The notes under the pieces were generated by a model. The model saw only the letters and a program-made list of their open reading frames with translations, searched no databases and had not been told where the DNA came from. Shown here one piece after another: positions 16,993 to 52,427 of a stretch of DNA of 62,077 nucleotides. Within the stretch, counting starts at the first letter, position 1; every line of letters starts with the position of its first letter. The position numbers and the translations under genes are program-made. The stretch is from Ectocarpus siliculosus (Eukaryota > Sar > Phaeophyceae > Ectocarpales > Ectocarpaceae): positions 1,384,283 to 1,446,359 of the forward strand of contig FN649755.1 of NCBI GenBank assembly GCA_000310025.1. Reading direction: 5' to 3'.

Positions 16993-19900
16993 ATGGAGGG
17001 AGATACCGACTCGGGCTCCGCAAGTCCTGGCGAGTAAAGGTCTCGACCGATGCGAGAGCCATTTTTTCGATTTTTCCTCCTTCACCCCGATGGAATTCGA
17101 GGAACACCGTATGTACGTTGGTTTTGTATTCTTCCGTTCGGTCGTCTATGTGCTTGTTCTTCGACAAGCAACGCCGAATGTACACGCACAATCGTCGCGT
17201 CATGCGTGTGCAGCTGGATCGGTTCGTCTGTAGGTCTTGTTAGTTCTTCTCGGGGATGCTGCCCAATGAATAATGGTTCCGTGTTTATAATTTCGCCCCA
17301 AACTCCCCATTTCCGAACGATATTTGTTTTATTGGAAAAACATCTTCAACGAACTTCTGAGCAATAGCTTGTCGTGTACTTTGGGCTGTTTTTTTGTCTC
17401 CATGGCCACCGTACTCGCATTTTTTTAATGATTCGTGACGGTCAAAGTGGTTGGGGTTTCGAGGTGTTCGTGCTACCGCACGTGGTTCGACGCGACTATT
17501 ATACCCTTCCCCTCATACCGCGTAATTTCGCAGCAATTTTGTTAGTATGTTGTGACACGCCGTTGTTCGTGTTCATGCCTGTGTAGCATGTGTCTGGCTT
17601 GCTCTCTTCGATGGTGCTATGAGGCGGACAGCTCAAACATGAGTGTGTTGTTGCGTTGGAGGATAGACCACGCACATCACTCCATCCAGCACCCTGTGAA
17701 TACACGTCCTTCGCCAAAGATGTTCTCTGGTTACCAAGCAGATGCAAATGCTGGAAAACGTACCTTAGGCACGTTTCTTTTGTCAAAAGGGGGAAACATA
17801 GGAATCCTTGAGGCCTACTTTTGACAACGAATACCGTAGACCGTACCTTGGAAACAAATGGAAACGCCCTCGGAACAGGTCCCCGTGTTCAGACATGCAT
17901 GGGCAGGCTTCGTATCCAACCTTAACCGCAGGCAGAGACGAATCCCAAACCAGCAAAATAACTTTGAAACCCCCCCCGGCCAAATCGATATTTCGGCAGA
18001 TGAATGGGGTTCGGCCGTGGCGACGGGAGACGCCACCAAGCTAGCCGAGCTGGTGCTGGTTTGGTCCGGTTCAAGGCCCGCGTCGGCTCTGTCTATTCTC
18101 AGGGAATGTGTCTCATTGTTGGAGAAGGAGGCTGCGTTTTCAGTTCCAGATTCTTCTTCCCTTCCTTCGCCCTCTTGTGCCCTTGGTGAGTTCCGTTTTG
18201 ACGTATTGAATTTGTGCCTTCGACGCCAATTGTGCACCCCTGTGTCTTCGTCGTCAGCGTGTGCAGGTCGAACGTTCAATCTTATCATCGGCACTCGCTG
18301 GTGTTCGTCGAGAAGAGGTGGATTGGGTGTTCAAGGGGTCCACAAATAGATAGCACCGTCGTGCACGGGTGAGGTCTGTTCGAAACAGGTCCCTCCATGC
18401 TTCAATTATGACGATCCAAAATGGAGTAAAATTATGACGATCCTTCCACGGATAGGAAATAATCGTGTCGTCAGCTAAGCTCGTTTCTCTGGGTAGAATG
18501 ATCCTACAACCACCTCACTTGCACATCGAAGGAGGCCAATCGGTGAAGGTATGCATAGCATCAAGGAGGATCTCACTTCAAAGCGTCAACTAGTGCGCGA
18601 GGGGTGTGTGTTCTCTGTTAATTCAGTATATGATGACGCACATTTTCAGAAGCCAGGGCGAAACAATGAGCACGTTCTTTTTCATGCGCTTGGATTGGCT
18701 CTCTCCGACGCCAGCGCCGGTAGCGTCGGCACGGTTTTGTTCAAGGGTGCTTTCGAGGCCTTCACGAATCTAGCGCGCGTCCACATTTCACAATGTTGCG
18801 AACCGTAAGGTTCAAAACTTTTCCGGCTAGCTTGCACGCTCGCTGCACCCCTCAAAGATTTGGCGGTCTGCCCGTCGGAGGAAATCTTTGGCCAAACTTG
18901 GCCTGGACGAGATTTTGGCGAACAGGAAAGAAGTTGACCCTCGTTGAATCGACAAATCTTGCGGCAAGATCTCAAGGTTTTGACCCTTGAGATTCCGTCT
19001 CGATGTACATACTGCGACCTGGCGTAGTTTGGTAGTTCTTCACGAAACATTTCTGACTAGCCGTCCTTGCTGATCTAGTCTGCTTTGCTCTGGCAGATGT
19101 AGGTGGTCAAAAATGCTTGAAGAGGGTTCGTGGTTGGCGCCTAGTCCCCTGTTTCTGTCTCAACGTTTGGCCCTGGAGAGCAACGTAGTCGGGGCTACAG
19201 TTCCCCTAACAGAAACCCTTGCGGTAGAAACTTCTCAATAGGTATTAAAGTTCAACGGTTGCTGTGGTTTTGACTATGTCCTGTCTCTGCGCTATCACGA
19301 CTTTCCGGCATTTTCTTTGTAATATTGTAAGCTTGTGCATAGAGCGGCACAAGCCACGCACCAATGGCCTGTTGGACCGTGCCATTTTCGTTGAATAATG
19401 AGCGTGTTCTATGAGTGGGGCGATTTTGACGTATCTCTCCTAATTGCATCATGCCCGTGGTACAATTTCGGAAGTATCCTTTCGCAGGGTAAATGGTTTA
19501 CATTGACGCAATTTAGTGCCTCAGCTTATAATACTGTATGCCAACACACCATTTATTCTCCCGTCAGGACCCACGCGCAACTCGTTCTTGAAGGCCCTCA
19601 TGGTTGCCTTGAACGAGGCGTCCGACGGGAAGAGTTGGTACACATCAACCACAGAGCTGCAGCTGGCATCCTTGGAGCTCTGCATGGCGTCAAGACACCA
19701 TCAGACGTTGCACTTGACAGTCGACGCACACACGCCACGCAGGCTGCTCGCTGCTGCGGATGCCCCCTCCCCGGACCCGAAGCGACTGTGTGGGACACGC
19801 GTGCCGCGGCTGAGAGCGCGTCGCGTGACGTGGAACATCCCGACAGCATCGGGAATGCGAACCTCGATCTTTGCATTGATGGACGTGGACTACTTGGAGT

Positions 19901-20916
19901 TCGGCCTAGCGTTTTGCGGAAGCCTGGACGCTGTTGCATGACCACGACGGCTGAAAACGATTGAGTTTCGCCATTCTCCGCTCAACCGGCTGCTTGACGG
20001 CGTTTCATGGCCAGCTTCGGTTGGGAAAGTCTGCTTAGGACACGATTTCAACCAACCCATTGAGAGAGTTTCTTGGCCAGATTCATTGCGGGAGCTCAAC
20101 TTTCGAGAGGAATTCAACCAGCCCATTGAGGGCGTGTCATGGCCAGATTCGCTGCAGAAGCTCACGTTCGGCTTTTATTTCAACCAGCCCATTGAGGGCG
20201 CATCATGGCCAGATTCATTGCAGGAACTGAAATTTGGACATGAATTCAATCAGGTCATTGAAGGGACATCATGGCCAGATTCGTTGCAGGAACTCAAGTT
20301 TGCACACGGCTTCGACCAGCCGATTGCGCGAAGTACATGGCCAGATTCGCTCCGGGGGCTGCGTTTCGGAGGCCAATTCAACCAGGACATTGTCGAAGTT
20401 ACATGGCCTTCTTCACTTCTGGCGCTGTCCTTCGGAACAAATTTCAACCGACCTGTCGAGAGGGTGTCATGGCCAGATTCATTACGCGAGCTCCGCTTTG
20501 GAGTGAAATTCAACCAGACAATTGAAGGAGTGTCATGGCCGAATGGATTGCAGCAGCTGAGCTTCGGACATCGATTCGACCAGCCTGTTCAGCGCGTTTC
20601 ATGGCCGGATTCACTTCAGGAGCTGAGTTTCGGACATGAATTTAACCAGCTCATTGACGGGGCATCATGGCCACATTCGTTGCAGAAGCTCAGTTTTGGA
20701 TTGCGATTCAACCTGCCCATTCAGGGGGTTTCATGGCCAGACGCGCTGCAGAACCTGAGTTTCGGTCATGAATTTAATCAACCGATTGAGGAAGTCTGTT
20801 GGCCGGCGTCGCTTCGTTCTCTCATTATCGGGCGTGGATTCAAGCAGAGTATCACAGGACTGAAGTGGTCTCCTGGGTTTGAAAAGTTGAAGTATGCGCG
20901 ATCCATGCAGTGGTAA
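16993..20916 (+). pseudogene. FNIP-repeat family member 1, with premature stop
   Basis: Three exons fit: 16993-17029 (MEGDTDSGSASP plus one base), 18000-18185 (cassette DEWGSAVATGDATKLAELV) and 19568-20916. Phases agree (1, then 1-1), and the total of 1572 nt is a multiple of three. The last exon has the conserved GPTRNSFLKALMVALNE start and about 14 FNIP-type 22-residue repeats such as FNQPIEGVSWPDSLQKLTFG. Two defects are visible. The exon-1 donor is GC (CCTG/GCGAGT) where both paralogues have GT. Codon 199 is TGA (19939-19941) where paralogues have TGG in AWPRRLK; the same frame then stays open to 20914. GC donors can work, so the nonsense codon is the stronger evidence of inactivation. 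Only one cassette exon is present. A cut-down protein without repeats remains possible. Confidence 0.8.
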
Positions 20917-20929
20917 TGACATGCGTCGG

Positions 20930-21210
20930 GTCACATGTTGAAGGTACTTGTCCGCGTTGCTTTTGGCCCGTGCAACAAACCGCGCTTCCTTGATTGCGTG
21001 CTCGCATGGTCGGCGTGAATCCCGAAATTGTTTTTCGTGTTCTCGGGCGTAGCGTGTGGAACGGTGTTGGCTCCGTCCCAACAGCCGTTTACGACGCGGT
21101 GGTGCGTTTGACTTGCACTGTTCGTAATAACTTGTAGACGCGGTACTCCGTGAGTACCGAACCAATCCAAGCAATGGCGTGTGCTCAAGTTGGAACGGGT
21201 AGAGAATTAG
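20930..21210 (+). repeat. Conserved 3' flank of the FNIP family, copy 1
   Basis: The sequence after the stop codon of member 1 aligns with that after member 2 (30690-30970). Shared landmarks are the cgcgttgctttc / gcgttgctttt region, ttctcgggcgtagc / ttctcgggggtagc, tgttcgtaataacttgtaga / tgttcgcaataacttgtaca and gaaccaatccaagc. It is probably 3' UTR duplicated with the gene. Confidence 0.75.
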
Positions 21211-22340
21211 TTTTCACTTCGTTCAATATTCCAGGGGATGAGGGGCACCGACGTGAGCGGACAATGCAGGCCATCAGAATTTGTTTGGTAATTCGTCAAT
21301 GTTCATGTGGTTTCTGTGAGTGCAAACCGTACGCATTTGAGTATCGTGAGAGCGCATTAGAGAGAATGAGCATGGCGCGAGGGCTGTTTTCAGAACTGGT
21401 GACGTTGGAGGCCCAGTTTTGATTCTCTGGTTGGCAATGCACAGAGCTTGCCAGAAGCCGTTGGAAACGATCCATCCGCTGTACATGCACTGTTTACTGG
21501 TTATTTACTTCTATGCAATCAATCCTCCAACAACAACGTCTTCACCCGGCAGAGCGTGCTACGCGAAGGCCAATTTGTGTATAAGTGCATACACATGTGG
21601 GGACATATGTCCAGGGCGTTTGTATCTCCATCCTTCTCCTTCTCCATCCGCCGCCCTCCTCACCCTATACACATACATGTCTTTACAACTTTCCACCCGG
21701 GAAAAGGAACAACAAAATGCCTTCAGTTGATTGAGCCGTGGCTACCCGCGGACTGTAACGAGGTACAGGATACGGCAACAATACACACACACAGCGTCGG
21801 TAAAGCAAACACGTGCCCGTATTGGCGAAATACGGCGAATTGCGACAACAAAATCCCGACAAAGACGCCGAAATTACAGGCAATCCCAAAAAAAACGAAA
21901 ACGAGTTATTACGTAGCACACACATACACACAGTCGAGGAGGAAAAAAAGGCGTGGAAGAGAGCAAGAGCTTCGGGGCAGATGACCTTCCCAACCACAAA
22001 TGACACAGGGCTAGAGGCGAATGTCGAGAAGTTGCTGTGAAAATGACCATGAGAACGACGGATCTTGCTCGCCACCGTACATCAATATTTCATGTACTTC
22101 CTTCATGTGGTTGCAGACACCTCCTTCTGCAAAAATGCGGCGCAGACTACTTCTGCCGTGCACAACAATCGATCATGCTCGTCATCTCATCACATACGCA
22201 GACATAATAAGGGATCAAACCCGGAATGTGCAAAAGGGGCTTCCCGACCATGGGCTCACAACTGCAGATTTGGACGCCATCGAGGTGTTGTATTTTTCAC
22301 CTGGTCATGTGACGTCATTTTGGTCTAGGATGAAAAAGAC
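21211..22340. other. Intergenic, no gene seen
   Basis: Several overlapping short frames occur but none with splice support. The 178-codon plus frame 21448-21984 is rich in Thr, Pro and Lys and looks random. Short CA-rich tracts lie near 21780-21800 and 21920-21935. Confidence 0.5.
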
Positions 22341-22341
22341 T

Positions 22342-22665
22342 CCACCACATCCCGTTCGACTGTGGGTATATCTCGAATGGGTAGTCTTTCTGTGTGTGTT
22401 TTTATTATTCCTTAATTGTAAACAGGCACTCCCTGATGAGTGATGAAAAGAGGGAACCAGCGAAACGTCAGCATTTCCTCCGCACTGAACTAAAGAGCCC
22501 CCCTGGACGGGGGTGCGCGCGCCCAACAACCCAACAGCACCCCACCAAAGCTCCACGTCACCCCAAGGTGCGAAGCCCTCGGCTCCTGGTGGAAACCTAG
22601 GGCTGGCAGAGGCATAGGGAGGACGGGGAGAGAGGCAGGGGCGCGAGAGGTGAGGTCTGCCTCTA
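22342..22665 (+). repeat. Dispersed repeat, copy B, with first segment inverted
   Basis: 22455-22665 matches 4557-4830 in the same orientation. The 74-bp segment 22342-22415, containing gtgggtatatctcgaatggg, is the reverse complement of 4467-4539. So the two copies differ by inversion of one end. A diverged relative of the segment, ttatgtctcgaacgggtagt, lies at 43229-43270. Confidence 0.75.
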
Positions 22666-23671
22666 GCGTTTACGATGCCTAGAATAGAGCACATCAACCT
22701 CCCCGTGCCGTGGGAAACGTGTCATGTGGCGGTCTCCGCCGTCTGTCTGTCTATCGCGGCGCCGTGGGCCAGGTTGGAGTCGTAAGCCCTGTTTGTTCTA
22801 CACCCGTGCTCGTACTGTGTGGCAAGGGTTGTACCGGTACATCGTCAGGATTGCTTTGACGTTACATATCTTGCCGACAGCGTAAACCTGAAGTCGCGTA
22901 CGCAGCAACCCAGGCCAAGTCGGTGCGACGTATGCGTACTTATAGCTCAAGGTCCGGACGTGAGGGGCTTCGCCCCCCGCCTGTCCTCCGTTGAAGGTAT
23001 ACCCGTTCGCGCCCTTCGTAGAGAGTGATAGTCACATATTGTATGCGTAGTAGCCAAGTGGAAGGTGGATTGTTACAAGGTGCAACGAGATCCCTATTTT
23101 TCCCGGCAACGTTCTTCGTGGTCAATTTGGTCTGACCTGAACGTTTTTGCCTTGTGTTTGCCCGCATTCTGCCGGTGGTGGTTGAAAAGCCCCATGACTA
23201 TCTACCATATGGTTTTAAGGGTTTGAAGACAAGCAACTTTGACGCTGAAGAGGTCGTGAGGAAATCGCAGGCGACACCCAGTTAGCTTGTGACACCCCAG
23301 TGCTAAAAACAGCAGGCCGGGTGGACAAGGTCTTTATGTCGGTGCTCATTTTTGTGCTTGTACTGTACCACGCTCTACGGTGAGCAAATCCAATTTGACC
23401 TGTTGTGTGTGTCAAGCAAGGCGTGCATTCAGCGATAGGAGACGTTTTTTTGCGCCGACCATTCGGGGATTTTTTTGCGTCGATGGCCGATCGATTCGTT
23501 TTTTTCGAGGGTCGATATGGATACGCGTCAATATCACGCTTCCGCCCGTGGACGCACGTCTGACGACAGCCACATCTATCAGCTGTCGCTCCTTGTAGCG
23601 ACAGCTATCCTATGATATAGGAAAGCAACCCTCCCCCCGTTTACATTCTGTTATTCTACTTTTTATCCGTA
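22666..23671. other. Intergenic, no gene seen
   Basis: No supported exon, RNA gene or array. Frames are below 80 codons. Confidence 0.5.
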
Positions 23672-24275
23672 TATGGGACACCATGAAGAGGGTCCTGTGT
23701 ACTGGCACGTTCGGGGTTACTCTGGAGCTGAAATATCGAAGGTCGCAGCAGCCCCTGAACACTGTCCGACTCTACGCCGGAACTAGCCGGAACCACACAT
23801 TTTTCACAGCCGTGCTCACTGCTACGGATCGTTAGCAGTAGCTAGTGGCATCAGTTACAACCCGCCGTTCAGGAGATTGGGGTTAGTGGCGGCGAGGACA
23901 AGCAGTACAAGACACAAAGGGTGTTGGTTATTTTCGGAGATTTGCGGGGATTGTACGCCGCTTCTACGATCCTCGATATCACCTCCCAAGAAGTAGATTT
24001 GAGCGCGCTAACACCCACACTCCACTGCTATTGGGTGTCGTCGACTGATAACAGTAGAATGCATAGCACCTAGTGCAACCCCGACCTTGTTTGAACGCAT
24101 GCCGTTCTGGCTCTTGTGGCTTGAACTTAGACTGGTGCGAAGTGTTGTCTTCATTTCAAAGGAGGTGTGTGGAGGTAGACGCGTGAAAGGAATACTTTTG
24201 AGTAGCCTCTACTGCCCACCGGGGGCGAGAATCAACGATTTCTGTTATTCGCGATGCCTTCCGATGGTCTTGTAT
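23672..24275 (+). repeat. Uncharacterised dispersed repeat, copy B, uninterrupted
   Basis: This is the continuous partner of the three split blocks at 4.9-11.5 kb. It reads straight through both insertion points: accacacatttttcacagcc around 23791-23810 is the empty site of the inverted-repeat element, and cacctagtgcaaccccgacc around 24067-24086 is that of the LTR retrotransposon. Confidence 0.85.
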
Positions 24276-25935: not shown

Positions 25936-28900
25936 ATGGACGGAGACACTGGTTCGGGTTCCGCAAGGCCTGGTGAGTAAAGAGCTACCCGTTTTGGTGT
26001 AAGGGTATTGTTTTGGCGGTGTCTTAAAAACATATTTCAAGGAAGTCGGTGTTCGTGCACATCGGGCGTCAATTTCTGTGTCGGGTTCATGGCCACCTTG
26101 GTCGCATTCCTCACGTGTTCGGTAGCACTCTATATCAGCAGCGTTCATGGTGCCTGTGCTTCCGCATGTAGTCAAACGCGACCACTGGTTAATCTCTTTT
26201 CCTCAAGCTGGAGTGTACGGTTCCGACGCATGCAATTTTTATGCTGTGAAACGCCGTCAGGGTTGTTGTTGCGCATATATTGTCGGTGAGGCTCAACGCG
26301 ATACTGTTCGGCGACTAACAGCTCTGCGACCAGCAGCATGGGAAATTTAGGTGCTTGGTAGGATGTGCCATGCGTACCACTCGACGACGGACCCTTGTGG
26401 ACATTTTCGGAGAACAAAATTGTCGAATCGTAGCTCAGGGAATGCACAAGAAAGTTTGAGGGTGTTGCGTTTTTCTACGCGGGACAAGTACCGGGATATC
26501 TTGCTCTCATGGAACGAAACCTTGCCCTGCAGAGCATTTCAAGGAAACAAAAAGCATCCTCAAAGGCTGTCATACGAGTTGATGACTAGGTTTCATGTGA
26601 AACTGGGATGATTTCAGGCTGGAACAGACCCGAAACCATCAGAAATCTGTGACCACACCGACAACTTGACGCTCCTGCAGATGAATGGGGTTCGGCCGTG
26701 GCGAGCGGAGACGCGACCAAGTTGTCCGAGCTGGTGCTGGTTCGGTCCGGTTCAATGCCCGAACGGGCTCTGTCGATTTTAAGAAACTGCGTCTCTGCGC
26801 TGGAGAAGGAGGATGCTCTTCCAGCTCCGGCTTCTTCTCCCCTTTCTTCGCCCCCGACTACGCATGGTGGGTTCCATTTTGACGTCTGGAGTTGGTTCAG
26901 TGACTGCACTGTTGCCGAGTTTAGGGTGGCATGCCGCATCAGGTGCTGTTTACCTGGTTGGCATCTGTTTCGTGTGGGCCTCTGCTTGCCTACCAGTGAG
27001 GCATGCCTCCCTCTCCTCGTGATGCTTCCCGCTGGAAAGGTTTGCACAATGTGACAACACAGTTCTACCGATGCTAGTTCCGCAAGGCCTGATAGCATAA
27101 GAGCTATTTTGGTGCAGGCGTCATGTTTCGCTTTTTGTTCCTCCCTGAGACGGATAGGATTTGGGTCTCATGTGTATCGTTCGAGATTCCGCTCTGTTTG
27201 CTTGCTTTCAATCGGTTGTGCCCTTGTGGTTTGACGAGTGCCGGTTGCAGACACGCAATCCCAGCGTGATACTGGTAGTATGTAACTGCAAAGATATGGG
27301 TGCCGGTTGAAAGCTGTTCCTGACTGATGCTCCATCGGCAGTTCGTCTGTTTTGACTCTTGCCCCGAAATCCCCAGACAAGTGTGTGCACAGGTCCCCAC
27401 AGCACATTTCCAAGCGGTCACTCTTCGTGCACCTGTTGCTACTGCTGTGTTACTTTCGTGACTACCTTGCTCGCGATTGTAACATTTTTGGGAAGCATTG
27501 AATCTCCGCAGTGTTGGTGTTTATGCCTCCATATGTAGTTGAACGCGACTGCGGTGTATTTATTTTACCCTAGCTGGAGTGTACGATTCTGGCGAATGCA
27601 GGTTGGTATACTAGGAAACGTCTTTCTGTTTTTTTTCCCCTATGTTTTGTATGGGTTTGGCGCTGCATATGGTTGTCGTGTTTTCTCTGGGACTGAGATC
27701 TCGTCGACCTGTTAACCCGGGTGTTTTATGGTGCTTGGGAGGCTACGCTATGTGCAGTATTCGCGATCGACGACCCTGCGCGTGTTCGGTGAGCGATATA
27801 GTCGAGTCGTAACGGGCATTCACACCATAAAGCAAGCATATTTGACAGTGGTTTGCTCTCAAACGCGTGGGAAACATCGGGACAATTGATCCCTTTGTTT
27901 CGAAAATTGTCCTCCTGGCCATGTTGACGAACTTATTTTGTAAACGCCGTCGCAGCAACGGCTGTATTGCTAGTGTTGGGCACGTTTGGTGTCCAACCTC
28001 GACCTTAGACTGCGACGAATCCGAAACCAACAGTTATCTTTGACAGCGCGGAAAAAATGACCACTCCGCAGATGAATGGGGTTCGGCCGTGGCGAGCGGA
28101 GATGCGACCAAGCTAGCCGAGCTGGTGCTGCTTTGGTCCGGTTCGATCTCCGAACGGGCTCTGTCGATTGTTAGAAACTGCGTCTCGTTGCTGGAAAAGG
28201 AGGTTGCTCTTTCAGCACCGGGTTCTTCTCCCTCTCCTTCACTCCCGACTACGCCAGGTGGGTTCTATAATGACGCTGGAGTTTGTGAATTGCCTGAACT
28301 TTCACGAATAGGATATGCTGCAGATCTTGCTTACCTGATGGTTGGGAATCATTTGGTGCGAGCCTCTGCTTGCCTACCGGCGAGACCTGCACAGGATATT
28401 TAGGGACGCATGTTTTGACCGGTCCTTGATATAGGAGCGTAATCTTATCATGTTCGCTTGGCGTTTTGTCCCAAGATTTGGTCGGCATTTCGGCCTGGGT
28501 CTCGAAATTTCGTACCGCCCGCTCTATCGGGAAAATGTGTTTTTCGGTGAACGTTGTGCCACATGTGCCGTGTGTCTCCTATCGTCTTGTTAAAGTTGTT
28601 CGAGACATGGCATCCCCTTCGTCCATAGAACGTTCCACCGCGTGTTGAAAACTGAGAATGCGGCAATCGTAGATGGATGCACCCCAGCTGCATAGCCGCA
28701 ACACTGAAGGTGGGTAATAGCTGTGAGCGCCGGCGTGGAGTTTGACAACACAAGACGCTGGCCACGCCTCCGTACACAGGAGTATGCAACAGTGTTCCAT
28801 TTCTGTCCCCGCTGCGAAAATGAGCGGCAACCCGACAGCCGAAGGCAATCACGAACGTCTCTTACTCCGCGGTCAGAACAACCAGGTCACGCGGTCAGAA

Positions 28901-30654
28901 CACCCGATTGAACCTGCCTTCATCATTGTTATCTGCACTCCGTGGTATATTTCGGGTGCAAGCGGATTGGGTGTATGATGATTCGGTCGAACGATTAAAG
29001 CTTTGCACCCTACACACTGAGCTCTGTTCGAAACAACTTTCTTCTTTTTTTTTGTTTTGCACTTCATTCTTGTTCGTGCGTCTCATTGTACTTGGGCTGC
29101 GTGACATCACGACTGTCCTATCGCGGGCTGCTACTGCCACTTGCTTCTGCAGATTGTTCCGCACACCTATATAGGTAACTCCGTCAGTGTTTATTTCCAA
29201 GTCGGGTTGCTTTGTTGCGGTCTGACATAATACGTACATGTTGGAAAAAATCTTCGTTTTAATCGAAAGGTCGCCGGTTTCAAAACGACCCGTATTTGTA
29301 GGCATCCGTGCGTGTGTACATACGAACGTGCGGTCGATTTTCTGTTCTGTACGACCGCCCCGGCGGCTGTTTCCCTCTCGACAACCCTAACAGCATACGG
29401 CCATCGGTGCTAGCAAGCTACAAGCGGAATTACCAAAAGTACATCGACCGCTTGGAGGCAGCCCTGACCACGGCATTTTCTTAGGTGTTCAACTCTGTGC
29501 TTTGTGCTTCAACCGTTTTCTTCGGTATTGTTGTGGTGTGATTAACTCTAATACGTGTTGTTGTAGGCCTCACTGAAAGATTTCGAATTTCGCCATTTTC
29601 ATGCCTTAGCTCATGTACACTTTCATCCACGACGTTTTCTTCCGCAGGAAGCGTTCGAACCTCGTGCTTGAACGCGTTCGTCGCTGCTTTGAACGGGACG
29701 TGCGACGGGAAGGCTTGGTACACGTCGATTCTGGAGCTGCAGCTGGCGTCTCTGGAGTTCTGCATTGCGTGCAGAAACTACCCGACCATGAAGTTGAAAG
29801 TTGACGCACGAACTCCTCGCAGGCTGCTGGCCACTGGGGATGCCCCACACCTGCAGTCGGAGTGGTTGTGTGGGACACGCGTGCCACGGCTACGAGCACG
29901 CCGCGTTTCCTGGGACATGGCGACAGCAGCGGAGTTAAGAGACCCGATATTTGCAATGACCGACGTGGACTACTTGGAGTTCGGCGAAACCTTTAATGAC
30001 AGCCTTCAGCCTGTGGCATGGCCGCGACGGCTGAAAACGATTGAGTTTTGCCGTTCGTCACAATTCGACCAGGCTATCGAGCTGGTACAATGGCCGGCAT
30101 CGATGCAGAGGCTTGGTTTCGGTAAGAGGTTCAACCAGCCGATTGAGCGAGTTTCATGGCCAGGTTCGCTGGGAGTACTTCGTTTCGGTCATGATTTCAA
30201 CCAACCAATTGCGGGGGTCGAGTGGCCGGCCTCCATGAGGTACATCATGCTTGGTTCAACGTTCAACCAGCCGATCCAGCGTGTTTCATGGCCACATTCG
30301 CTGCAGACGCTCATTTTCGCAGGGGACTTCAACGAGCCGATTGAGGGAGTTTCGTGGCCAGATCCGTTGCAGGCGCTCTGGTTTGGATGGCAATTCAACC
30401 AGCCCATCGAGGGGGTGTCATGGCCAGAATCGTTGCAGAAACTCAGTATTACACGTGACTTCAACCAGCCCATTGAACGAAGTTCATGGCCAAGCTCGCT
30501 GCAGGAGCTCAGTTTCGGAATTGAATTCAACCAACAAATCGAGCACGTCCGCTGGCCGGAGTCGCTTCAGGTGCTAAGGGTGGGGTGTAAATTCAAGCAA
30601 AGTATCACAAAGGTGAGGTGGCCTCTAGGGTTCCAGGGGGTGCAGTATACGTGA
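25936..30654 (+). CDS. FNIP-repeat family member 2, intact model with duplicated cassette exon
   Basis: Four exons fit: 25936-25972 (MDGDTGSGSARP plus one base, donor G/GTGAGT), 26681-26866, 28072-28257 and 29648-30654. Exons 2a and 2b are both 186 nt, phase 1 at each end, start DEWGSAVASGDATKL and end in Ser/Pro-rich linkers before G/GTGGGT donors. The joined frame is 1416 nt, 471 residues plus stop. The last exon starts GSVRTSCLNAFVAALNGTCD, has a conserved block (TPRRLLATGDAP, GTRVPRLRARRVSWD) and then about nine FNIP-type repeats (FNQPIEGVSWPESLQKL). FNIP repeats form leucine-rich-repeat-like solenoids in Dictyostelium and giant-virus proteins. No signal peptide, membrane segment, F-box or kinase is visible, so a cytosolic binding role is only inferred. 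Splicing with 2a, 2b or both all keep frame. Confidence 0.8.
27005..27110 (+). pseudogene. Relic of a duplicated FNIP exon 1 inside member 2
   Basis: Between cassettes 2a and 2b the sequence atgcttcccgctggaaagg, then ATG CTA GTT CCG CAA GGC CTG, matches the 5' UTR, exon 1 and donor region of the family. Codons 2-6 are missing and the donor GTGAGT has become ATAGCA. What follows (gctattttggtgcaggcg, catgtttcgctttttg) matches intron 1 of member 3. So the duplicated unit was promoter, exon 1, intron 1 and cassette exon, and the inner exon 1 then decayed. Confidence 0.65.
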
Positions 30655-32140: not shown

Positions 32141-32144
32141 GGGT

Positions 32145-35551: not shown

Positions 35552-38500
35552 TCATTCGTCGGTGAAGCTCTGGTTCTTGGAGCCGCCGCCCTGCACCAGC
35601 ACACTCCATCTTGCCGTTCGCTCCATTGCGTCAGCCTGTGCCCTCGCCAGATCATGTTCGTCATCAGGCACATCACGGTCTGGCGCTTGTGTAGACAAGA
35701 TCGACGACAGGGCCGAACTGATAAGAGGCCGTAACAACTGTCGCAGGAACAAGGGAAGGGAAGAAGAAAGGGCAATGAATGAGAGACGATCTCCGTGAGA
35801 TATATGACCGGTGTGAAACAGGTGGTATGGGCGTGGGAAACAAAAACTATGAGACATGCACCGATGACTGTTGGATTTTGGTGACGGCGTGATCGAGGAA
35901 AGAAACATAGTTACAGTAGTTTCCGTGTAGCGGCTGAGGGTGGCATTCCATTAGTTGTGGTTACCCTTTCGACGAAGAGCTGGTTTATAGATGTCGTCCC
36001 CTTATAGGCCTGAGCACATCGCGCAACGTAACATTCTGGCGCGGAAGGTCGGCCCGGTGCCCTCTGTTAGATGTACTCGCAGCAGCATCTGGTCGTGAGG
36101 ATCCCAGGGGGATACGTGTTGGGAATTTCGTGTGTTGCAGGGTACCATCGGTGCAGTCACGGGGACCCTTTTGGCGTGGTTGGTGCGATGAAGCTTGCGT
36201 GCGTGCTGCGCTCATCTTCCTCTCTCTCTCCACCACCACCACCGTCTCTCTCCAATCAAGTTTCCTTCTCCCACTCTCTCTCCAACTCTCTCTCGACCTC
36301 TCTCTCTCTCAGCGTAACACGGCCAACTACCCAGTGCCCCAAGTAACGTCCAGAACGTGCTTGCTGCACCCCGCGTAGTTTACCATTCACCCTCCCAGGA
36401 CCTTGTCCAGGATGCTGGCCCTCAGTAGGACCGTGGCCTGCGTGATTCGCGAAAAATGGTTTGACGTGGCGTGCCCCAAACGCATCACACATATGTGTGT
36501 GACTGGTCTGGTATAGGTAAACAATGGCAGCTGGTATGCGCGGCGGTGCGCGCGCGCCCATGACACAAGACCACGCGGAACAATGGCATATATCTAGAGG
36601 CACTTGACAAATGCAGAGGGTTACGCTAGCAATAAATATATACTTTCAATCCGCCAAAAACATGTAGCCACGTTCAGTCCAGTACGATATTACTCGTGTT
36701 GTATATCGATACGAGCTTCACGCACACGGCACTACAACGTGAAAAAAAAATACCAGCGCCTGGAGGTGTCACTTGTCCCGTAAGCGTCATGTACGTATAA
36801 TTTACCAGGACGATTATTTGCCGATAGATAAAACATTTGAAGCACGAACCCCCATATATATTAACGTCACATTGGCCAAATGCCGCCATAAATTTACGAT
36901 ATACCACGCATCACTGCTGTGACGTGATCCCGTTGCCGAAATTGTCTGCATATCTCGTTGTCTGCTCACCGGCGCGTTCTCTTCCATTTGACTGGCCAGT
37001 TTGATGCTCGCGAGTATGACATCATCACCGTCTTCGGGCCTGCAGTCGGATTGTGCATCAGGCCCATCGTCTCGAGCGTACAGACCCGTGCAGTACACCT
37101 TGATCGCCTCTCGGATGATCTTGTGCCACGCCAACATCGTATTTTGAAAGGANNNNNNNNNNNNNNNNNNNNNNNNNNNNNNNNNNNNNNNNNNNNNNNN
37201 NNNNNNNNNNNNNNNNNNNNNNNNNNNNNNNNNNNNNNNNNNNNNNNNNNNNGGCGTGGCACAAGATTATCCGAGAGGCAATCAAGGTGTATTGCACGGG
37301 TCTGTACGCTCGAGTTGTAGACTTCCACCGAGACGATGGGCCTGATGCACAATCCGACTGCAGGCCCGAAGACGGTGATGATGTCATACTCGCGAGCATC
37401 AAACTGGCCAGTCAAATGGGCAATGCTATAGCATTGAGTGCCTCAATGAATTCACCTACACATCCGTCAACATGGCCATCCAACAGCAAAACACAAGAAA
37501 CAAAGCAGGCAGTGCTGTCGGAACATGTACAGCATTTCGTTGACCTCTACCTCTGGGGGGGTCGACTGACCGACGCGATTATCAGGCGGGACACTCTTCA
37601 AGGTAGATGGGGTTGTCCCGGCACGCGAGGGTGGCGGTGGTAGCGCTCTCTTTGAACCGGGCATTCTCAAGTGAAATGATCGTACTTTGCTCATGTCCGA
37701 CCAGGTTTAACCCCGAAAAAAAGTCCAGTGTAGGTACGTCTGCATCATTCTAGGTGTCAGTTCGCCGCACAATGATACCATATGTAAAAGTCGAACTTTC
37801 CACCTCCAAACACGTTTACCACGACGCATCCACATCCCCCAATCTTCATTTAAACTGTCACCGGTTGTTCTGGGCACACGTGCATGCTTGCCCGTATCAC
37901 TGTATTGTTGGGAGAAAATATTCTCTCGTCGGCCAGCTACTGGAATGGGCAGGAGACAGTGTGCGAGTTGTTCACGAAACACGAAATCTAACTTATAGGT
38001 ACTATCGACGCGGCGACATCGTAAACATTTCCCTTTGGACTGAGGAAGCCCGGCGTAAATCGCAACAATTCGCTTTGCCAATTGGCCTGAAGAAACTACG
38101 CTCATTGAAACATCAATCCGACTAGCCGACCCCCTCTACACAAGCCGCAACAAAGCGACACTAGTCCACGTACGTAGTAGCTTGGGGAAAAAAAAAAAAA
38201 CACGCGTACGTCCTCGCGCTCACCTCGGAAAGCCTCGTTGGACTGGCTGGGCAACTCCTTGGTCAAGAGGAACGCTGACATCAGGAAGGCGTTGTTGTTC
38301 ACTTCGGTCCTCTTCTTGTTGGTACCCAGGTTGTACTTATTCTTGAGTGTCCCTGTCATTGTCGCAGCAACCGGGGCTAGCATTCACGTAGCGTGAGCGC
38401 GCGACCTCCTGTGACGACTCAGTTCGTTGTCCACGGCTTTCTTCCTCGGCGTCGAAGAGGACCCTTTGCTGCCTCCGCCAGGATTCTCGGTTCCCAATAA

Positions 38501-44004: not shown

Positions 44005-45640
44005 TTCCCTGACCCTGTGGGTGCCGATACCCTGTCGTGGCTAGAATTCGTGACACTGAGGACCATACGACATCCCCAAGGTTTTACTTACTTACTACGT
44101 GACCCTGTGGATAACGTAACACTGGCAAGGTTCCCCGAAATACCCTGTCGAATTGTGAAGACGGCATGGTGTGTTCCTTCACCGACCCTGTGGGTATCGG
44201 TACCCTGTCAAGGCGATAATATGTGACCCTGTGGATTATCAATACCCCCAAGGTTTAACTTTTGTGACGCTACTACTGCGGATGACGTACACTGCCAAGG
44301 TGAACAAAGAAACGATTCTGTGGATTTTTCAAGCCCCAAATAAATGGTGTGTTGCTTCACCGACCCTGCGGATATCCGCGGGTATCGACACCCTGTCACG
44401 GCGATAATTTGTAACCCTGTGGACTACACGGTATCCCCAAGGTCAGGGTTTCGTGACCCTGCGGATGACGAAACACTGGCAAGGTGCACACAATGACCCT
44501 CCTGTAGAACTTTCAAGCCCCACATGGTGTGTTCCTTCACCGACGACCCTGTGGGTATGGGCACCCTGTCATGGCGAGAGCCTGTAAACCTGTGGACCAC
44601 ACGGTATCCCCAAGGTCAAGTTTGGTGACCCTGCGGATGACGCAACCCTGGCAAGGTGCACCGAATGACCCTGTAGAACTTTCAAGCCCCGCAGGGTGTA
44701 CTCCTTCACCGACCCTGTGGGTAACGAACCCCTGTCATGGTGAGCACGTGGCACTCTGTAGACTATACGATATCCCCAAGGTCGGTTTTTCGTCACCCTG
44801 CGGACGACCCCACCCTGGCAAGGTTCACCGAATGACCCTGTAGAATTATCAACCCCCACATGGCGTTTTTCTTCACCGACCCTGTGGGTATCGGCACCCT
44901 GTCGTGGCGAGAGCTTGTAACCCTGGGGACCACACGATATCACCAAAGTTTAACTTTCGTGACGCTGCGGATGACGCCCCCCTGGCAAGGTTCATTGAAT
45001 GACCCTGTAGAACTTTCAAGCCCCGCAGGGCGTTTTCCTTCGCCGACCCTGTGGGTACCGAAACCCTGTCATCGTGAGCACGTGGCACCCTGTGGACTAT
45101 ACGATATCCCCAAGGTCAGGTTTTCGTGACCCTGCGGATGTCCCCACCCTGGCAAGGTTCACCGAATGACCCTGTAGAATTTTCAACCCCCACATACTGT
45201 ACTACGTCGCCGACCCTGTGGGTACCGAAACCCTGTCATGGTGAGCACATGGTACCCTGTGGACCACACGATACCCCCAAGGTCAGGTTTTCGTGACACT
45301 GCGGATGAGGCAACCCTGGCAAGGTGAACCGAAAGACCCTGTAGAACTTCCAAGACCTACATGGTGTGTTCGTTTACCGACCTTGCGGGTATCGGCACCC
45401 TGTCATGGCGATAGCTTTTAACCCTGTGGACCATACGATATCCCCAAGGTCGGGTTTTGGTGACCCTGCGGATGACGTAACCCTGGCAAGGTTCACCGAA
45501 TGACCCTGTGGAACTTTCCAGACCCACATGGTGTGTTTCTTCGTCGACCCTGGGGGTACCCTAACCCTGTCATTGTTGACCCAGTGACCCTGGCAATATT
45601 TTTTACCTCGACAGGGTACCCACAGGGTCAGCTACAGGGT
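44005..45640 (+). repeat. Satellite, unit about 165-180 bp, about 10 copies
   Basis: Copies begin with accctgtgggtaycg at about 44012, 44183, 44364, 44543, 44713, 44878, 45046, 45213, 45378 and 45543. Each unit holds four ordered motifs: accctgtgggt, accctgtcatggcgag, atatccccaaggtc and gaccctgcggatgac followed by accctggcaaggttcaccga. The array ends with gacagggtacccacagggtc (45610-45629), the exact reverse complement of the unit start form gaccctgtgggtaccctgtc, so its right edge is an inversion. Frames of ~100 codons across it are by-products. Confidence 0.92.
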
Positions 45641-45659
45641 GAAACCCTGCACAGGATGT

Positions 45660-46410
45660 CCACAGCCCTGAGCAAAGTGGCCACCGGTGTAGTTACTACT
45701 ACTACTACTACTGCTGCTCTTCTTGTTTCCTTTGAATTTTTTTCTCTTTTTCTCTGTTTTCTCTTTTCTCTCTCTTCTTTGCCAGATGGCCTTGTCTCTA
45801 CTTGCGTTGTGAAGTACCAAGATTGAACCAAGGGGGTGTACCTCTTTCTCTCCGGCCCGTGATATTGACTCCTAGTCTCAGTTGAAACCTCGCATAGCGC
45901 GCAGAGAGAGTGGTTGACTCCAGAATAATATCTGTCGTTGATTCCTGTTGACTTGCGACCCCTCGGGACCAGTTTATTTGAGCGTACTTTTTTAGGCAAA
46001 GTTAACCTGTGACCACGGGAATCGACCGCGTCGAGTGTTGGATCAGTACGGACATATGAAGGTACTGGGTAGAGAGAGATCGGAACGGTTTAGACAACAA
46101 CAACAACAACAACAACATGTGTGAATGTGAATTACGCACGACCGACGGAACGTCAGTAATCCATCCGCACGGCCCTACCCCTCGCTCGAGCGGTCTGCGT
46201 TCCCCCTGTACAAATAACGCAAGTTGAATGGAGGAGCGCCAGCACTCCACCGCAGCACTCGGGCGGGGGCGGACAGTGGGAGAGAGGATAGCACGGTGAA
46301 ACAGAGGGAGGTGGATGGTCACAAGAGAGGTGAGGACTTGCCTGTAGCTTTTTCCAAGCTTGTTCTCCTGTATACGTTGTGCTGATCGACTTGGTTCTTC
46401 CGCAAGCCCA
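45660..46410. other. Intergenic with microsatellites and a diverged dispersed repeat
   Basis: An (ACT)n tract lies at 45698-45712 and a (CAA)n tract at about 46096-46115. From about 46100 to 46350 the motifs cgacggaacgtcag, gcgccagcactccaccgcag and gagaggtgaggacttgcctg resemble the dispersed repeat at 4.56-4.83 and 22.45-22.66 kb. No gene was seen. Confidence 0.5.
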
Positions 46411-46785
46411 TTATCCCATTATCCATGGGTACAAAGTTTCGTTCCCCTCGGTGTTCCTCCGCTCAAGGTCGGGGAACACACGGCCCGCCGACCGCCAACG
46501 CCGTGCCGTAGTCCAAATGGTGAACCCTTTGGGTAATGCACATGTGGTTGTTGAAGCGGTTGTGGCCAGGACTATCTGCGGATCTGGGCCCCAATCTTGC
46601 TCAAAGACGTGAACCCAAAGTCGTCCGGGCGCCGCCCTCTGCATATGTGTACAATACATGTGTACGCGCTTACCCCTGGTGGGAAGGAGTAAACCGTCTC
46701 GAAACTTCTTCATACCATGGAGAAATCGCCGGGTCGCAGACATCGGCGCCTTGATGTGATTGCGACAGCAGTGTCTAGGGTCCAA
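46411..46785 (-). other. Unassigned 124-codon frame with protein-like C-terminal half
   Basis: The minus frame reads GRLWVHVFEQDWGPDPQIVL, then CALPKGFTIWTTARRWRSAG and DLERRNTEGNETLYPW before its stop at 46411. The residue mix is protein-like over about 70 residues, but no domain is recognised and no splice sites define it. It may be an exon or an old mobile-element fragment. Confidence 0.25.
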
Positions 46786-47099
46786 GACCGCTTGGAATCG
46801 AGGCGCTCTAGCTGTCCGCCATGAGGATCAAATACGTAGCATACGTATGGCACGTACAGTAGCAGGATCTCCATTCAACTCTCTGTTTCCAAGTGGAGAT
46901 ACCGCGGTAGAACGACCACAGGGTGTTACTGGTTTCCCCTGTACCCCTCCTGTTCACAAGTCTTCACAATCACCTTGCATGTACATCATGCAGTCCAGAT
47001 TCCAACCAGCCGGCACTGCACGGGCTGAATCGCACACTTGGACAATATGGGCAGAACATGCGGAACGACTCCTGCTTCTTATCATGACGTCATGACATG

Positions 47100-48050
47100 G
47101 CGTTTGACAACGACGAATACTGGAGTAACAAATAAATAACCAGTACAATTCATTTGCAGCAGCCGGAAACTGACCTGCGTTGAACACTACCTCTGCTCAC
47201 TCGCTAAAGCCTACAATACTGGTACGGAGTATCACTGGTAATACTGAGTGTATATCCTAGGCTAGGCTTTCAGACTCCAAACAAGCCTGCCGCTACCGTT
47301 GAAATCATCGGTGAAAAATGGCGTGTACATCCCGGCTCGGCTCGGCAGCATTTCCGCGTCTAATTTTCTTTTCAATATTACGTGGGATAAATCAGCGGCA
47401 TAGCGCGCCCTGAGCGGTCAGTGATGCGACTTCGTCGCCAGAAGGAAGGATCGTTGATGTTCTCTATCGTTTACTTGCATTCACGCGGAAGCGGAACGTT
47501 TTTTTTTTTTTTGCCGTAGAAACCTCCCTTGCTTCCTGTCTCCTGTGGCCAACATTGCTCTTTTTGGGCCTCTTCACCTATATAAGATAGGCCTCTCACC
47601 CTAAGCAACTGAAACAAACGTTTTGAAACTTGCTCGGCTATTCCAAACTTCAGCATGCTCTCTGGTTTATGCCAGTCAACATTGTGGAGCTGCGCGATAC
47701 GCCACTGGTGTGACAAGCGACCGCATCACCTGTCGGGGAAACATGACTGCGCTTCGTTCTTTGCCGTGCGTGATGCTGAAGATGACAGCTTCGCCAATCT
47801 TTGCCCAATGACTGCCTCTCAGAAAAGAGTGTCTATGAAGTCTCTTCCAGGTTTGAACTTTAATTCCGCAAAATCCGGGGGTTATATCACCCGGGGGCGG
47901 GGGTTGTTTCCGGCGTGCCGCGGTCAATATCCACCATTTCTGTCTTCGTTGAGGACGTCCATTCATGCATTGTTGTGTGTCGTGTAGGTCCTTTGTTTCT
48001 TGTCGCGACTGCTTCAATTGAGCATTACGCTGAAACGAATTGCAAGACCT
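47100..48050. other. Upstream region of FNIP member 3
   Basis: No gene is supported. A T12 tract lies near 47500. The ~75 bp before the ATG at 48130 (gccgcccccctcttctcgtg and onward) aligns with the region before members 1 and 2 and is probably promoter or 5' UTR. Confidence 0.5.
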
Positions 48051-48129
48051 TTGAAATGTGTGCCGCCCCCCTCTTCTCGTGTTGCTTGCCGTCGCAAAAG
48101 GTCTGAAAACGAGCGACATGTTTTGCTTC

Positions 48130-51100
48130 ATGGAGGGTGACGCCGGTTCGGGATCGGCAAGGCCCGGTGAGCAAGAGCAATGCTGTTGCGGGAGTCGCGT
48201 TTTGCTTTTTGTCCTTCCTCATGCCGAGAGGGTTCGAGTAAGACAAAACCGCCATGCGCATGTTATCTCAAGTCTTCCGTTCAATCATACGTACTCCTAC
48301 GGTTCTGTGAGCGATCTCCGCGTGATATGTGTGTAGCTGGACCTCTCGTCGGGAGCGCTGCTGAATTCTGCTCTCCGAAATGGTTCGTTTGTGAACGATC
48401 GTCGTTTGCATGCAATTTCGCCCCCAATCCCCAGACCTGGCCGTTTTTTTCGAGGTAACTGAGATATCGACGTCTCGTTTCTATCAGGGAGTAGGCTCAC
48501 CAAGTGCGCTTTGGTGTTTCCGTGTCAGTTTGCTCGCATTCTTCACATGGCTTGACGGTAATCTGATGGGCTGCCTTTGCGGTCGTTGTGGGTTGAAATG
48601 CAACTGGACCCGATCAATGACGTATCCCCTTTTACCCCAGCTACTGTATACAATAACCAAGAATGTTCTCCAAGTGTTTCCTTGGTGTTGTTCCTCGCCG
48701 TCAATCATTTCGATGAATGTGTGATGTGCATTTGGATAGTGTTGGACTTACAGCTCTACTCCAACATCAGAACAAGCATTCAGTAATCATCCTGAACATC
48801 CTGAACAACTAAAGTTCTGGAGCCACGACCAACTATTATGTTTGGGCCATCATGCAGGGCATACCATGTATGGAGCAAGTGCTTTAGGCTATTTCAAACG
48901 CGAGATATGAACCCTCAAAGCGCCAATACATGTCCTCTGGGCCATGTCCAGGAACCATGTACGGGTAAGAGCCGTTCAAGCAAATCGTTGTGTTTGAGAG
49001 TATCCAGTAAGGCAAATCGGAGGCGACGATCAATTCGTTCCCCGAAGCCGGCGCAATGGTCTCCCACAACACGGACAAATCGACGATTCCGCAGATGAAT
49101 GGGGCGCGGCCGTCGCGAAAGGCGACGCGACCAAGCTGGCCAAACTGGTACTTCTCTGGTCCGGTTCAAAACCCGAGCGGGCGCTCTCGATCCTCGAAAA
49201 CTGCGTCTCTTTGCTGGAGGAGGTTTTGGAAGAGGTTGAACCTTCCGATCCGACCCCTTCTCCCCTTCCGCCGCCCCCGACAGACCGTGGTGGGTGCCTC
49301 GTAGCTTGTGAATTGCGTGACCAAGCTGAGGAGACGCCCTAAGTCTTGCTTGCCGGGTGGTCGGGAATGCTTCGTGCGAACCGCTGCGTTGCCTGGCAGT
49401 ATAGCTTACAGAGGTTTGGGCAGAGGCTGTTGACTGTCTTGGATTGACAGCTCTGTGACGAGTATACCGGATGTTGTTTTGCTTGGAAGCGCATGACATG
49501 CGCATCGCTCGATCAAGCCCCTTGTTGGTTGGGTCAGGGACCAGAATTCGGGAGCGACATTCATGGAACACCATGCATTTTCTCGTGACACGCGTGGCAC
49601 GTCTGATCATGGAGTCCTAGTTTTGCGAAGCATGTCCTCACGGCCGTATCGAGGGGAAACATTCGTGTTGAAGACGCCTTCGCTCCTCGGATATATTGAG
49701 CAGGGCTCATGCCCAACCTTGAATTCAGGCTGCGACCGATAGGAAAACATCGAAATATCTTTGGTAACACCGGCGAATTGACGATTCCGCAGATGCATGG
49801 GGTTCGGCCGTGGCGAGCGGCGATGCGACCGGGCTAGCTGAGCTGGTGCTGCTTTGGTGCGGAGTATTGCCCCACCCGGCTTTGTCTATTCTTAGACGCT
49901 GCGTCGCTGTGCTGGAGAAGGAGGTTGCGCTTTCAGCTCCGACATCTTCTCCTCTTCCTTCGCCCCAGACTTCGCGTGGTGGGTGCCATGTTTGCTTTCG
50001 GAGTTGTTAAATTGTATGAACTCTCATTGATTTGAGGAGAGGCTGAAAATCTCCGTTGCCTAGTGGTTGGCAACATTGTTTACGTGAGCCTACGTGGACT
50101 TGAGGCGGCAGGAGATTTGGGCAGATCGTGCCTTCACACCGGTCCTAAATGTTGACAGCGTCTTCTGAGTTGAACCTTGACGTTTTGTCCCAGTATTGTA
50201 CAGGTTCATCTTGGTCTGTCTGAACTTGTTTTACCTCCCGGCACGGGGGGAGATGTTGTTCTGGGTAAAAGGTGTGCGCTGTGTTTTTGGATGGTCGTTT
50301 CTTTCTCGGTCGAGCTGTTCAAGACGCAACGACCACTCTGGTCCAAAGAATTGTCCAGGTGTAATATGCTGAGCATGGCGCCCTCGCCAAAGGCCTCGCT
50401 GCCCCCAGCTGTATCACCGCAACACTGCAAGTAGTTCGGCGAAGGTCGTCCTGGGTGCAAGAACGGGGGACGGTGGCCACGTTCTTGTGCACACGGAAAA
50501 CAATGAGGTTCCATGCTTTTCCAACGTCAAAATTCACAACATCCCGTCCGCTGATGACAATTTGTGTCCGGCCGGTTTTGTGCTCGAAGTGACAACACTT
50601 GGCCGTTGACACGTGCTGGCCAAGACGGGATGGAAGATTCGACGATGGAAAACCTGAAAGTAATCGTCGTAGGCAGATCTTAAACAAAAATGAGACTCCG
50701 CCCCGCCTGAGATACCTTCCCTTTGTTACCCTGTATAAAAGCTCATATGGGATCCGGCTTCGATACCTTCGAGTGTTCCCATGAAGAAGTTCTGGGGCAT
50801 CCTTCTCGCCTCTATTTTTGGCATTATTGTAGCAACTACCACAGTAGGTTGCTGGCTGACACAGCCTCCTGTCACCGTTTCCCCGTAAAAGATGGGCTGT
50901 TGTGTCCCCTTAATGTCGTAACACCAGAATCCCTGCAGTCGATTTCCTCGACAGTTGTTTATAGTGCAACAACTTAGAATATGGTTGTGTTTACAAATTC
51001 CGTGCCTCAGCCTCGTCATGGCCTCCCCACCAATAGGTGTCCGTTCGGAACCTTTCCAGAAGGTTAGCTAACCGTTGATTGATTGTCTTATGGCTCGGCA

Positions 51101-52427
51101 AAAAAAGGCAGGCATCGATGCGCTTTTGGAATCTGTTGGGTATGGCAAATTTCGCGGATTCTCGTCCTGTGGCTTCATGGCCTCTGAGGAGTTTTAGATT
51201 CTCCTTCAACGGACCGATGTTTAGCAGAACTCGTCGATTTAAAGTCATAGATTTTTTGCACGCCGACACGCCATGCTTATTTCCTCAGGACCCACTCGCA
51301 ACTCGTGCTTGAACGCCCTGACGGTTGCTTTGAACGAGACTTGCGACGGGAAGAGTTGGTACACGTCCACGAAGGAGCTGCAGCTGGCGTCCTTGGAGTT
51401 CTGCATGGCGTGCAGAAACCATCAGACGTTGCACTTGAATGTCGACGCAAAGACTCCACGCAGGCTGCTAGCCGCTGCGGATGCACCCCCCACTCATCAG
51501 ACGAGCCTGGCTTGCACACGCGTGCCACGAGTTAGAGCTCGCTGCTTGACGTGGGACATAACGACAGCAGCGGAATTGAGGATCCCGATCTTCGCAATGA
51601 CGGGCGTGGACTGCCTGGAGTTCGGCAACGACTTTGGGGGCAGCCTTGAGGCTGTGGCATGGCCGCGACGGCTGAAAAGGATTGAGTTCTGCTCTTCTTC
51701 ACCGTTTAACCGGCCTATCGACCAGGTCGAATGGCCAGAATCCCTGCAGACGCTTTTATTCGGTCTGAGTTTCAACCAGCCGATTAAGGCAGTCCGTTGG
51801 CCGGCATGCCTGCAGAGGCTTGTGCTTGGTACGAGTTTCGATCAACCGATTGATGGAGTCGAGTGGCCGGCATCGCTGCAGGAATTGACGTTCGGGTTCG
51901 CTTTCGACCAGCCCATTGAGGAAGTGTCCTGGCCAGATTCGCTGCGGGAGCTAAATTTTGGATTTAAGTTCAACCAACCTCTTCAGGGAGCAGTATGGCC
52001 AGGCTCGCTGAAGAAGCTCGACCTCGGAGATAAGTTAGACCAGCCCATTGCTCAAGTTGAATGGCCGGATTCGCTGAAGAAGCTGAGGATCGGACATTAT
52101 TTTAATCAGCCAGTTGTGGGAATTTCATGGCCAGATTCGCTGCAGACCCTTAGTTTCGGAAATTGCTTCAACCAACCAATCAAGGAAATCTGTTGGCCGG
52201 CATCGCTTCGGGATCTAACGGTAGGGCGAAACTTCAACCAACCAATCAAGGACGTTCGTTGGCCAGATTCGCTGCAGACGCTCAGCTTCGGAGAGTTCTT
52301 CAACCAACCAATCAAGCAAGTCTCTTGGCCGGCGTCGCTTCGGGAACTCACTGTCGGGCGAAATTTCAACCAGAACACTGCAGGAGCGAGGTGGCCGCCT
52401 GGGTTGGTTCGAAGGGGTGCGCTATGA
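48130..52427 (+). CDS. FNIP-repeat family member 3, intact model with duplicated cassette exon
   Basis: Four exons fit: 48130-48166 (MEGDAGSGSARP plus one base, donor G/GTGAGC), 49095-49289 (195 nt), 49793-49978 (186 nt) and 51289-52427. The joined frame is 1557 nt, 518 residues plus stop. Cassette 2a reads EWGAAVAKGDATKLAKLVLL and has a three-codon longer acidic/Pro linker; 2b reads AWGSAVASGDATGLAELVLL. The last exon starts GPTRNSCLNALTVALNETCD and holds about ten complete 22-residue FNIP-type repeats plus a partial one (FNQPIKDVRWPDSLQTLSFG; F-[ND]-Q-P-I...WP-x-SL). No frameshift or stop was found. Both cassettes are phase 1-1, so inclusion of one or both keeps frame. The function is unknown; a ligand-binding solenoid is inferred from the FNIP family. 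Confidence 0.82.

Follow-up and report, generated by a model that had tools for sequence, protein, structure and literature searches.

Three genes for FNIP-type leucine-rich repeat (LRR) proteins lie on the + strand of the stretch of the Ectocarpus siliculosus genome analysed here (62,077 nucleotides, hereafter the window; C30:1384283-1446359 of the searched 189-Mb assembly). Their architecture raises the question of what the short exon in front of the repeats is and why its number differs between the genes. Splice sites and reading phases reveal a common design: exon 1 of 37 nt is followed by the cassette exon, once in locus 1 and twice in each of the other two loci, and then by one last exon that holds a conserved N-terminal block together with all FNIP repeats of the locus, with every junction in phase 1. 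This agrees with a first-pass annotation, which had described three same-strand loci of one design at these positions and the cassette twice in two of them. That annotation gave the cassette as about 186 nt long with phase 1 at both ends; the phases hold for all five copies and the length for four, but copy A of locus 3 measures 195 nt. All five are bounded by CAG/AT...G/GT. Of the three genes, which share the exon pattern, locus 1 is broken: a TGA stands in frame ahead of the repeats, the donor after exon 1 is GC and not GT, and because of these two features it looks like a pseudogene. The last exons of loci 2 and 3 are open. We consider it fairly probable that the genes belong to a subfamily of intracellular FNIP-LRR proteins carrying a borrowed, phase-1-symmetric helical exon, the number of which varies the valency of the protein.

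The cassette module and a histone-chaperone-like gene

The N-terminal domain had been left without a match in the first-pass annotation. We searched the contigs of this genome with cassette and last-exon block, counting matches at E values up to 0.1. A window cassette matched one exon outside the FNIP genes, at C30:719726-719866 (L014; E 3.5e-11, 66% over 44 amino acids). In L014 the module opens directly with an ATG, and the donor behind it is in phase 1 as judged by eye. A piece of PF21103, the first pleckstrin-homology (PH) domain of SSRP1, lies in the exon predicted next for that gene (18.7 bits, cut-off 27), and a piece of PF08512, the Rttp106-like middle domain, lies about 7.5 kb further on with 30.6 bits (cut-off 25.5). 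In controls with PF08512, one of 14 genomes gave a match, and this was below the cut-off. The two families were matched on two other contigs only, C44 and C2, and neither contig appears among the matches listed for the cassette searches. In the literature, SSRP1, Pob3, Spt16 and Rtt106 are tandem-PH relatives (PMC4685450) and Rtt106 is a chaperone of histones H3-H4 (PMC7066812). As judged from sequence, homology thus links the FNIP N-terminal module with the first coding exon of a gene on the same contig that lies with SSRP1/Rtt106-like PH pieces. The likeness in DNA between the L014 gene and the FNIP subfamily comprises only this exon and its partial intronic copies, besides short matches with E values of at least 0.02.

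AlphaFold predicts helices 2-9, 12-23 and 28-47 for the five window cassettes, followed by a low-confidence tail rich in proline and serine. By sequence, the phase-1-symmetric exon places an N-terminal module of about 46 residues and a Pro/Ser-rich linker between a 12-codon start exon and the last exon. The module may have been borrowed from the chaperone-like gene and then have spread with the FNIP subfamily. As to known domains, two window cassettes matched no Pfam family, and the best PDB sequence match (E 1.2) is unconvincing. Viral relatives of the block or the cassette were not confirmed in IMG/VR contigs.

Some further observations concern the surroundings of these genes. The intron after the first coding exon of L014 contains partial copies of the 3' half of that exon (L014:2035-2075, read by eye, and 2218-2273), and exon-piece duplication therefore occurs in the chaperone-like gene, too. 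A repeat upstream of this gene is common to the distant FNIP loci L019 and L020. Several FNIP genes have a dispersed repeat with similar translations in their upstream region (L001, L025, L027 and L018:1647), and it also occurs close to the chaperone-like gene.

Cassette number and duplication of gene starts

A phase-symmetric exon can be gained or lost without a break of the frame, as the first-pass annotation had pointed out, and the subfamily provides such a series. Seven members of the subfamily have both an exon 1 and an open last exon; their numbers of usable cassettes are 0, 0, 1, 1, 1, 2 and 2, and the predicted join is in frame in all seven. There is no usable cassette in L008, which holds a truncated remnant, or in L010; one is found in each of L001, L004 and L005, and two in loci 2 and 3. 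L003, with an open last exon, was left out of this series on account of a wrong exon-1 offset. Of the 17 FNIP-type cassette copies in the window and related loci, 14 still have a donor where phase 1 requires it. It is missing in L006, L008 and L015; the cassettes of L002, L012 and L013 keep the donor but have a frameshift or stop inside.

The intron between the two cassettes of locus 2 informs about the origin of the second copy. Its start (26867-27006) resembles the intron that follows a cassette. Then come a promoter-like part (27006-27048), an exon-1 remnant (27067-27091) and intron-1-like pieces up to 28059. Altogether, 13 blastn matches to promoter, exon 1 and intron 1 are present in gene order, compared to none in six control post-cassette introns. 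Because the intron keeps these remnants in order, we read the duplicated unit of locus 2 as the 5' end of a gene, consisting of promoter, exon 1, intron 1 and cassette. The cassette exon as such, which had been annotated as the duplicable unit, is not the unit here. These remnants contradict, for locus 2, a simple tandem duplication in which the cassette exon was copied alone in each of the two-cassette genes, an explanation that we regard as very unlikely. Copy A of locus 2 indeed has copy B as its nearest relative (identity 0.881), which would speak for such copying, but copy B reaches the same 0.881 with L003 and with L005.

In locus 3, the intron between the cassettes is short (503 nt) and no exon-1 remnant was found in it, both in favor of copying the exon alone. 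However, the two cassettes of locus 3 share an identity of 0.698, below the identity of either one to each of ten other FNIP cassettes. This low identity suggests that locus 3 may have arisen by the joining of diverged 5' ends. Recognisable in the intron are only its last ~105 nt, which are like the end of intron 1 in other members, and a short post-cassette-like piece. Relations of paired cassettes were judged by identity over the first 42 codons, since trees of these short exons have little support (well-supported inner branches: one of nine for cassettes, one of ten for the block). We propose that extra cassettes would arise where 5' gene ends are duplicated or recombine unequally with one another.

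Extent and state of the cassette subfamily

With a window cassette as query we found 18 matches genome-wide, which by our own count fall into 16 loci. The last-exon block gave 130 matches; in some cases two of them come from one gene, and the weakest are doubtful. These numbers reveal a large FNIP family in which a single subfamily is marked by the cassette. By our own count, 15 loci, locus 3 included, have a block at least 65% identical to that of locus 3 (near loci). The family of three members described before is consequently too small, with 15 near last exons within a family of 130 block matches. Further FNIP genes of this genome also have the cassette and the 12-codon exon; their absence from all such genes would have refuted the first-pass annotation, which withstands this check within the one genome searched. 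A recognisable cassette is present in 13 of the near loci; L007 has none and L010 a weak match of 24 residues only (E 0.005). The remaining cassette loci are L012 and L013, without a block, and the non-FNIP locus L014. In 16 more distant FNIP loci the cassette was not found. Inspection by eye gave a candidate phase-1 acceptor in front of the block, at the corresponding site, in 14 of them; L020 and L024 are unclear, and L032 offers two such sites. A last exon that starts in phase 1 therefore looks like a family feature and the cassette like a feature of the subfamily. No common upstream coding exon was detected in the distant genes, which gave patchy matches only, some of them repeat-like.

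Among the 15 near loci, 11 have a recognisable exon 1, three of them having served to build the model; the model did not find it in L006, L007, L009 and L011, and exon 1 of L003 has no ATG. A strict exon-1 pattern occurs at four places genome-wide, all in the cassette subfamily, and at none in the reversed control. In L003 a second, partial exon-1-like match (L003:234-253; weak, E 0.25) is located near an N.

The repeats themselves were identified by PF05725, which scored above the Pfam cut-off inside loci 1 and 2 (C30:1404461, 1404791 and 1414676, among the best 150 of 1539 candidates). Locus 3 is not among these listed matches. A profile containing locus 3 matches CroV539, and its last-exon model is a FNIP solenoid that matches the CroV539 structure 7zal (E 1.3e-17, template modelling score 0.78 by target length). 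An F-box or another known domain was considered for the last-exon block and rejected, as 13 scanned members share no Pfam family; four families matched one member each (best E 0.033), and no PDB match was obtained by profile.

The state of the copies could also be explained if the loci were mostly decaying relics of segmental duplication, in which cassette duplications are accidental and functionally meaningless. Of the 15 near last exons, seven are broken; truncation or internal stops affect some cassettes, and L012 and L013 have cassettes with no block in the fetched piece or, among the block matches, up to 10 kb downstream. On the other hand, eight of the 15 last exons are open, seven genes retain exon 1 together with an open last exon, and the helical part of the cassette is under frame-specific constraint (see below). 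We consider decay as the main explanation doubtful, and prefer a functional subfamily whose members would be subject to birth and death.

The contig C30 is 4 Mb long and contains 13 of the 18 cassette matches and 23 of the 130 block matches (own count), together with many EsV-1-7 repeats. In the genome the EsV-1-7 domain is expanded to at least 150 matches (the best 150 of 880 candidates, all 150 positive), an expansion linked with brown algae; together with the WP sub-motif of the FNIP repeats it fits such an alga. Positions 36814-37643 of the window contain a 100-N gap (37153-37252) between inverted copies of one sequence, possibly an assembly artefact. The coordinates of the three loci are given in the table.

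Table. Predicted features of the three FNIP loci; positions are those of the window.
Feature	Position	Strand	Description
Locus 1 exon 1	16993..17029	+	37 nt, phase 1 end, GC donor
Locus 1 cassette	18000..18185	+	186 nt, phase 1/1
Locus 1 last exon, N-terminal block	19568..19941	+	ends at in-frame TGA 19939-19941
Locus 1 FNIP repeats past stop	19942..20916	+	open, same frame
Locus 2 exon 1	25936..25972	+	37 nt, phase 1
Locus 2 cassette A	26681..26866	+	186 nt, phase 1/1
Locus 2 intron A-B	26867..28071	+	composite, parts in gene order
Locus 2 cassette B	28072..28257	+	186 nt, phase 1/1
Locus 2 last exon	29648..30654	+	N-terminal block and FNIP repeats, open
Locus 3 exon 1	48130..48166	+	37 nt, phase 1
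Locus 3 cassette A	49095..49289	+	195 nt, phase 1/1
Locus 3 intron A-B	49290..49792	+	503 nt
Locus 3 cassette B	49793..49978	+	186 nt, phase 1/1
Locus 3 last exon	51289..52427	+	N-terminal block and FNIP repeats, open

Constraint, repeat surface and possible function

The ratio of nonsynonymous to synonymous substitution rates (dN/dS) was estimated between paralogues by NG86, which is not a site test of positive selection. Pooled over 11 cassettes, it is 0.32 in the helical part and 0.78 in the tail, and the helical part read in two shifted frames gives 0.89 and 1.74. The helical part of the cassette is conserved rather than fast-evolving, which does not support the comparison with fast-evolving receptor families in the first-pass annotation. 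Pairwise medians are 0.43 for cassettes (66 pairs, non-FNIP exon included, lowest value 0.20) and 0.36 for the block, where the 78 pairs also cover broken genes. Last exons have a median of 0.35 (28 pairs); they vary in repeat number, so that non-corresponding repeats may be aligned. The 11 cassettes compared to the non-FNIP exon gave values of 0.26-0.63.

In the FNIP repeats, positions 3, 5, 8, 9, 16, 18 and 21 vary freely on a conserved scaffold (56 repeats from eight subfamily genes, chosen by a strict pattern that dropped divergent repeats). At the variable positions the proportions of nonsynonymous (pN) and synonymous (pS) differences are close to each other, both being high. The free positions are somewhat different in 168 repeats of 12 distant genes. 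A variable repeat surface with a conserved scaffold would suit modular immune-type recognition receptors that gain diversity through shuffling of the cassette exon, as would the large expanded LRR family with its open and broken copies and the shuffling of LRR exons in brown-algal LRR-ROCO genes (PMC11378527). However, the FNIP repeats of each locus share one exon, and cassette shuffling therefore cannot vary the repeat surface. Binding surfaces are thus not reassorted as the earlier comparison with LRR-ROCO genes had implied. Furthermore, the exon that shuffles is the conserved helical module, two cassettes are present in only two of 15 cassette-bearing FNIP-type loci, and the median pairwise dN/dS of the exons is 0.35-0.43. 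Hydropathy was scanned in nine predicted proteins, and none had a stretch resembling a membrane segment or a signal; the highest mean over 19 residues is 1.68. Such a scan is not a signal-peptide predictor, the locus 1 protein ends at its stop, and the exon-1 offset of L003 was wrong. A reading as surface receptors is not supported. We judge receptors of this kind to be unlikely, and an intracellular adaptor or sensor is likelier than a surface receptor.

Among known systems, FNIP/FGxxFN LRR proteins (PF05725; CroV539 and CroV588, Ectocarpus, Saccharina) are alike in the WP-sub-motif consensus, the solenoid and the size of the family: 121 FNIP proteins are reported in Saccharina (PMC4421812), 104 sequences in a brown alga printed as 'Endocarpus' (PMC9525666, which also describes the WP type of FNIP in a brown alga), and a FNIP pseudogene in Ectocarpus (PMC2373305). 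In contrast to the known FNIP proteins, those described here have a block without shared Pfam or PDB match and, in addition, a helical cassette exon. This cassette architecture is not described in the FNIP literature, as far as titles and the beginnings of abstracts in a partial coverage go. SSRP1/Rtt106-like tandem-PH chaperones resemble the present system in that the module is homologous to an exon of a gene lying with PH pieces. The FNIP proteins, however, are without PH in the scanned parts and join the module to an LRR solenoid; for residues 1-295 of the protein predicted from spliced locus 2, Pfam gave a single sub-threshold FNIP match and no PH domain, and of loci 1 and 3 parts were covered. 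The brown-algal LRR-ROCO family likewise has a symmetric-phase exon in LRR-bearing genes. There, each LRR is a 72-bp phase-2 exon (PMC11378527), whereas here the N-terminal 186-nt phase-1 exon varies, and no ROC-COR came up when two cassettes, the last-exon blocks and residues 1-295 of locus 2 were scanned with Pfam. Plant nucleotide-binding LRR receptors with integrated domains are similar in the fusion of a domain from a cellular protein to an expanding LRR protein, and FNIP repeats themselves are listed as an integrated domain in some of them (PMC4759884). This likeness is one of concept; no NB-ARC was found in the FNIP-cassette proteins in the same Pfam scans.

We return to a subfamily of intracellular FNIP-LRR proteins with a borrowed helical exon. 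In this mechanism, the module would be a three-helix protein-interaction tether, probably oligomerising, with a flexible linker to the solenoid; the FNIP-LRR solenoid would bind a protein ligand, and cassette numbers of 0, 1 and 2 would change the valency. Several points weigh against it. Splice sites and conservation are the basis of the predicted exon joins. The cassette model is shallow (five sequences, mean pLDDT 75, pTM 0.43; predicted local-distance and template-modelling scores, respectively) and has no PDB match in Foldseek. Oligomerisation by the module is putative and drawn by analogy to the N-terminus of yeast Rtt106, which dimerises. The PF21103 piece of the chaperone-like gene is below the curated cut-off, and the PF08512 piece was just under it in a second scan (24.8 compared to 25.5 bits). 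Since the PH pieces are ~7.5 kb apart and the PH1 piece is sub-cut-off, we infer, rather than observe, that both belong to one gene with the module exon. The putative role of this gene as the donor, and with it the direction and age of the borrowing, are viewed here from a single genome. Pairwise dN/dS of cassettes reaches 1.06, the exon-1 remnant in locus 2 is weak by itself (E 0.061), though continuous with matches to intron 1, and the fetched piece ends before L004 does. Finally, the proportion of broken last exons also fits a decaying family.

A far-reaching extension would be a system similar to integrated decoys outside plants, in which an expanding LRR repertoire with 0 to 2 copies of the chaperone's N-terminal module would bind either the chaperone or a factor by which a pathogen, such as a virus residing in chromatin, targets it; we mention it as a long shot with very little probability. 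Brown algae and giant viruses possess many FNIP-LRR proteins, whose functions are little known (PMC9525666). The series of 0, 1 and 2 cassettes together with the remnants of 5' ends points to a phase-1 exon that may be added by recombining a whole gene start and not a lone exon. For the FNIP-LRR proteins, a module common to a histone-chaperone-like gene would provide a concrete and testable hypothesis about their partners.

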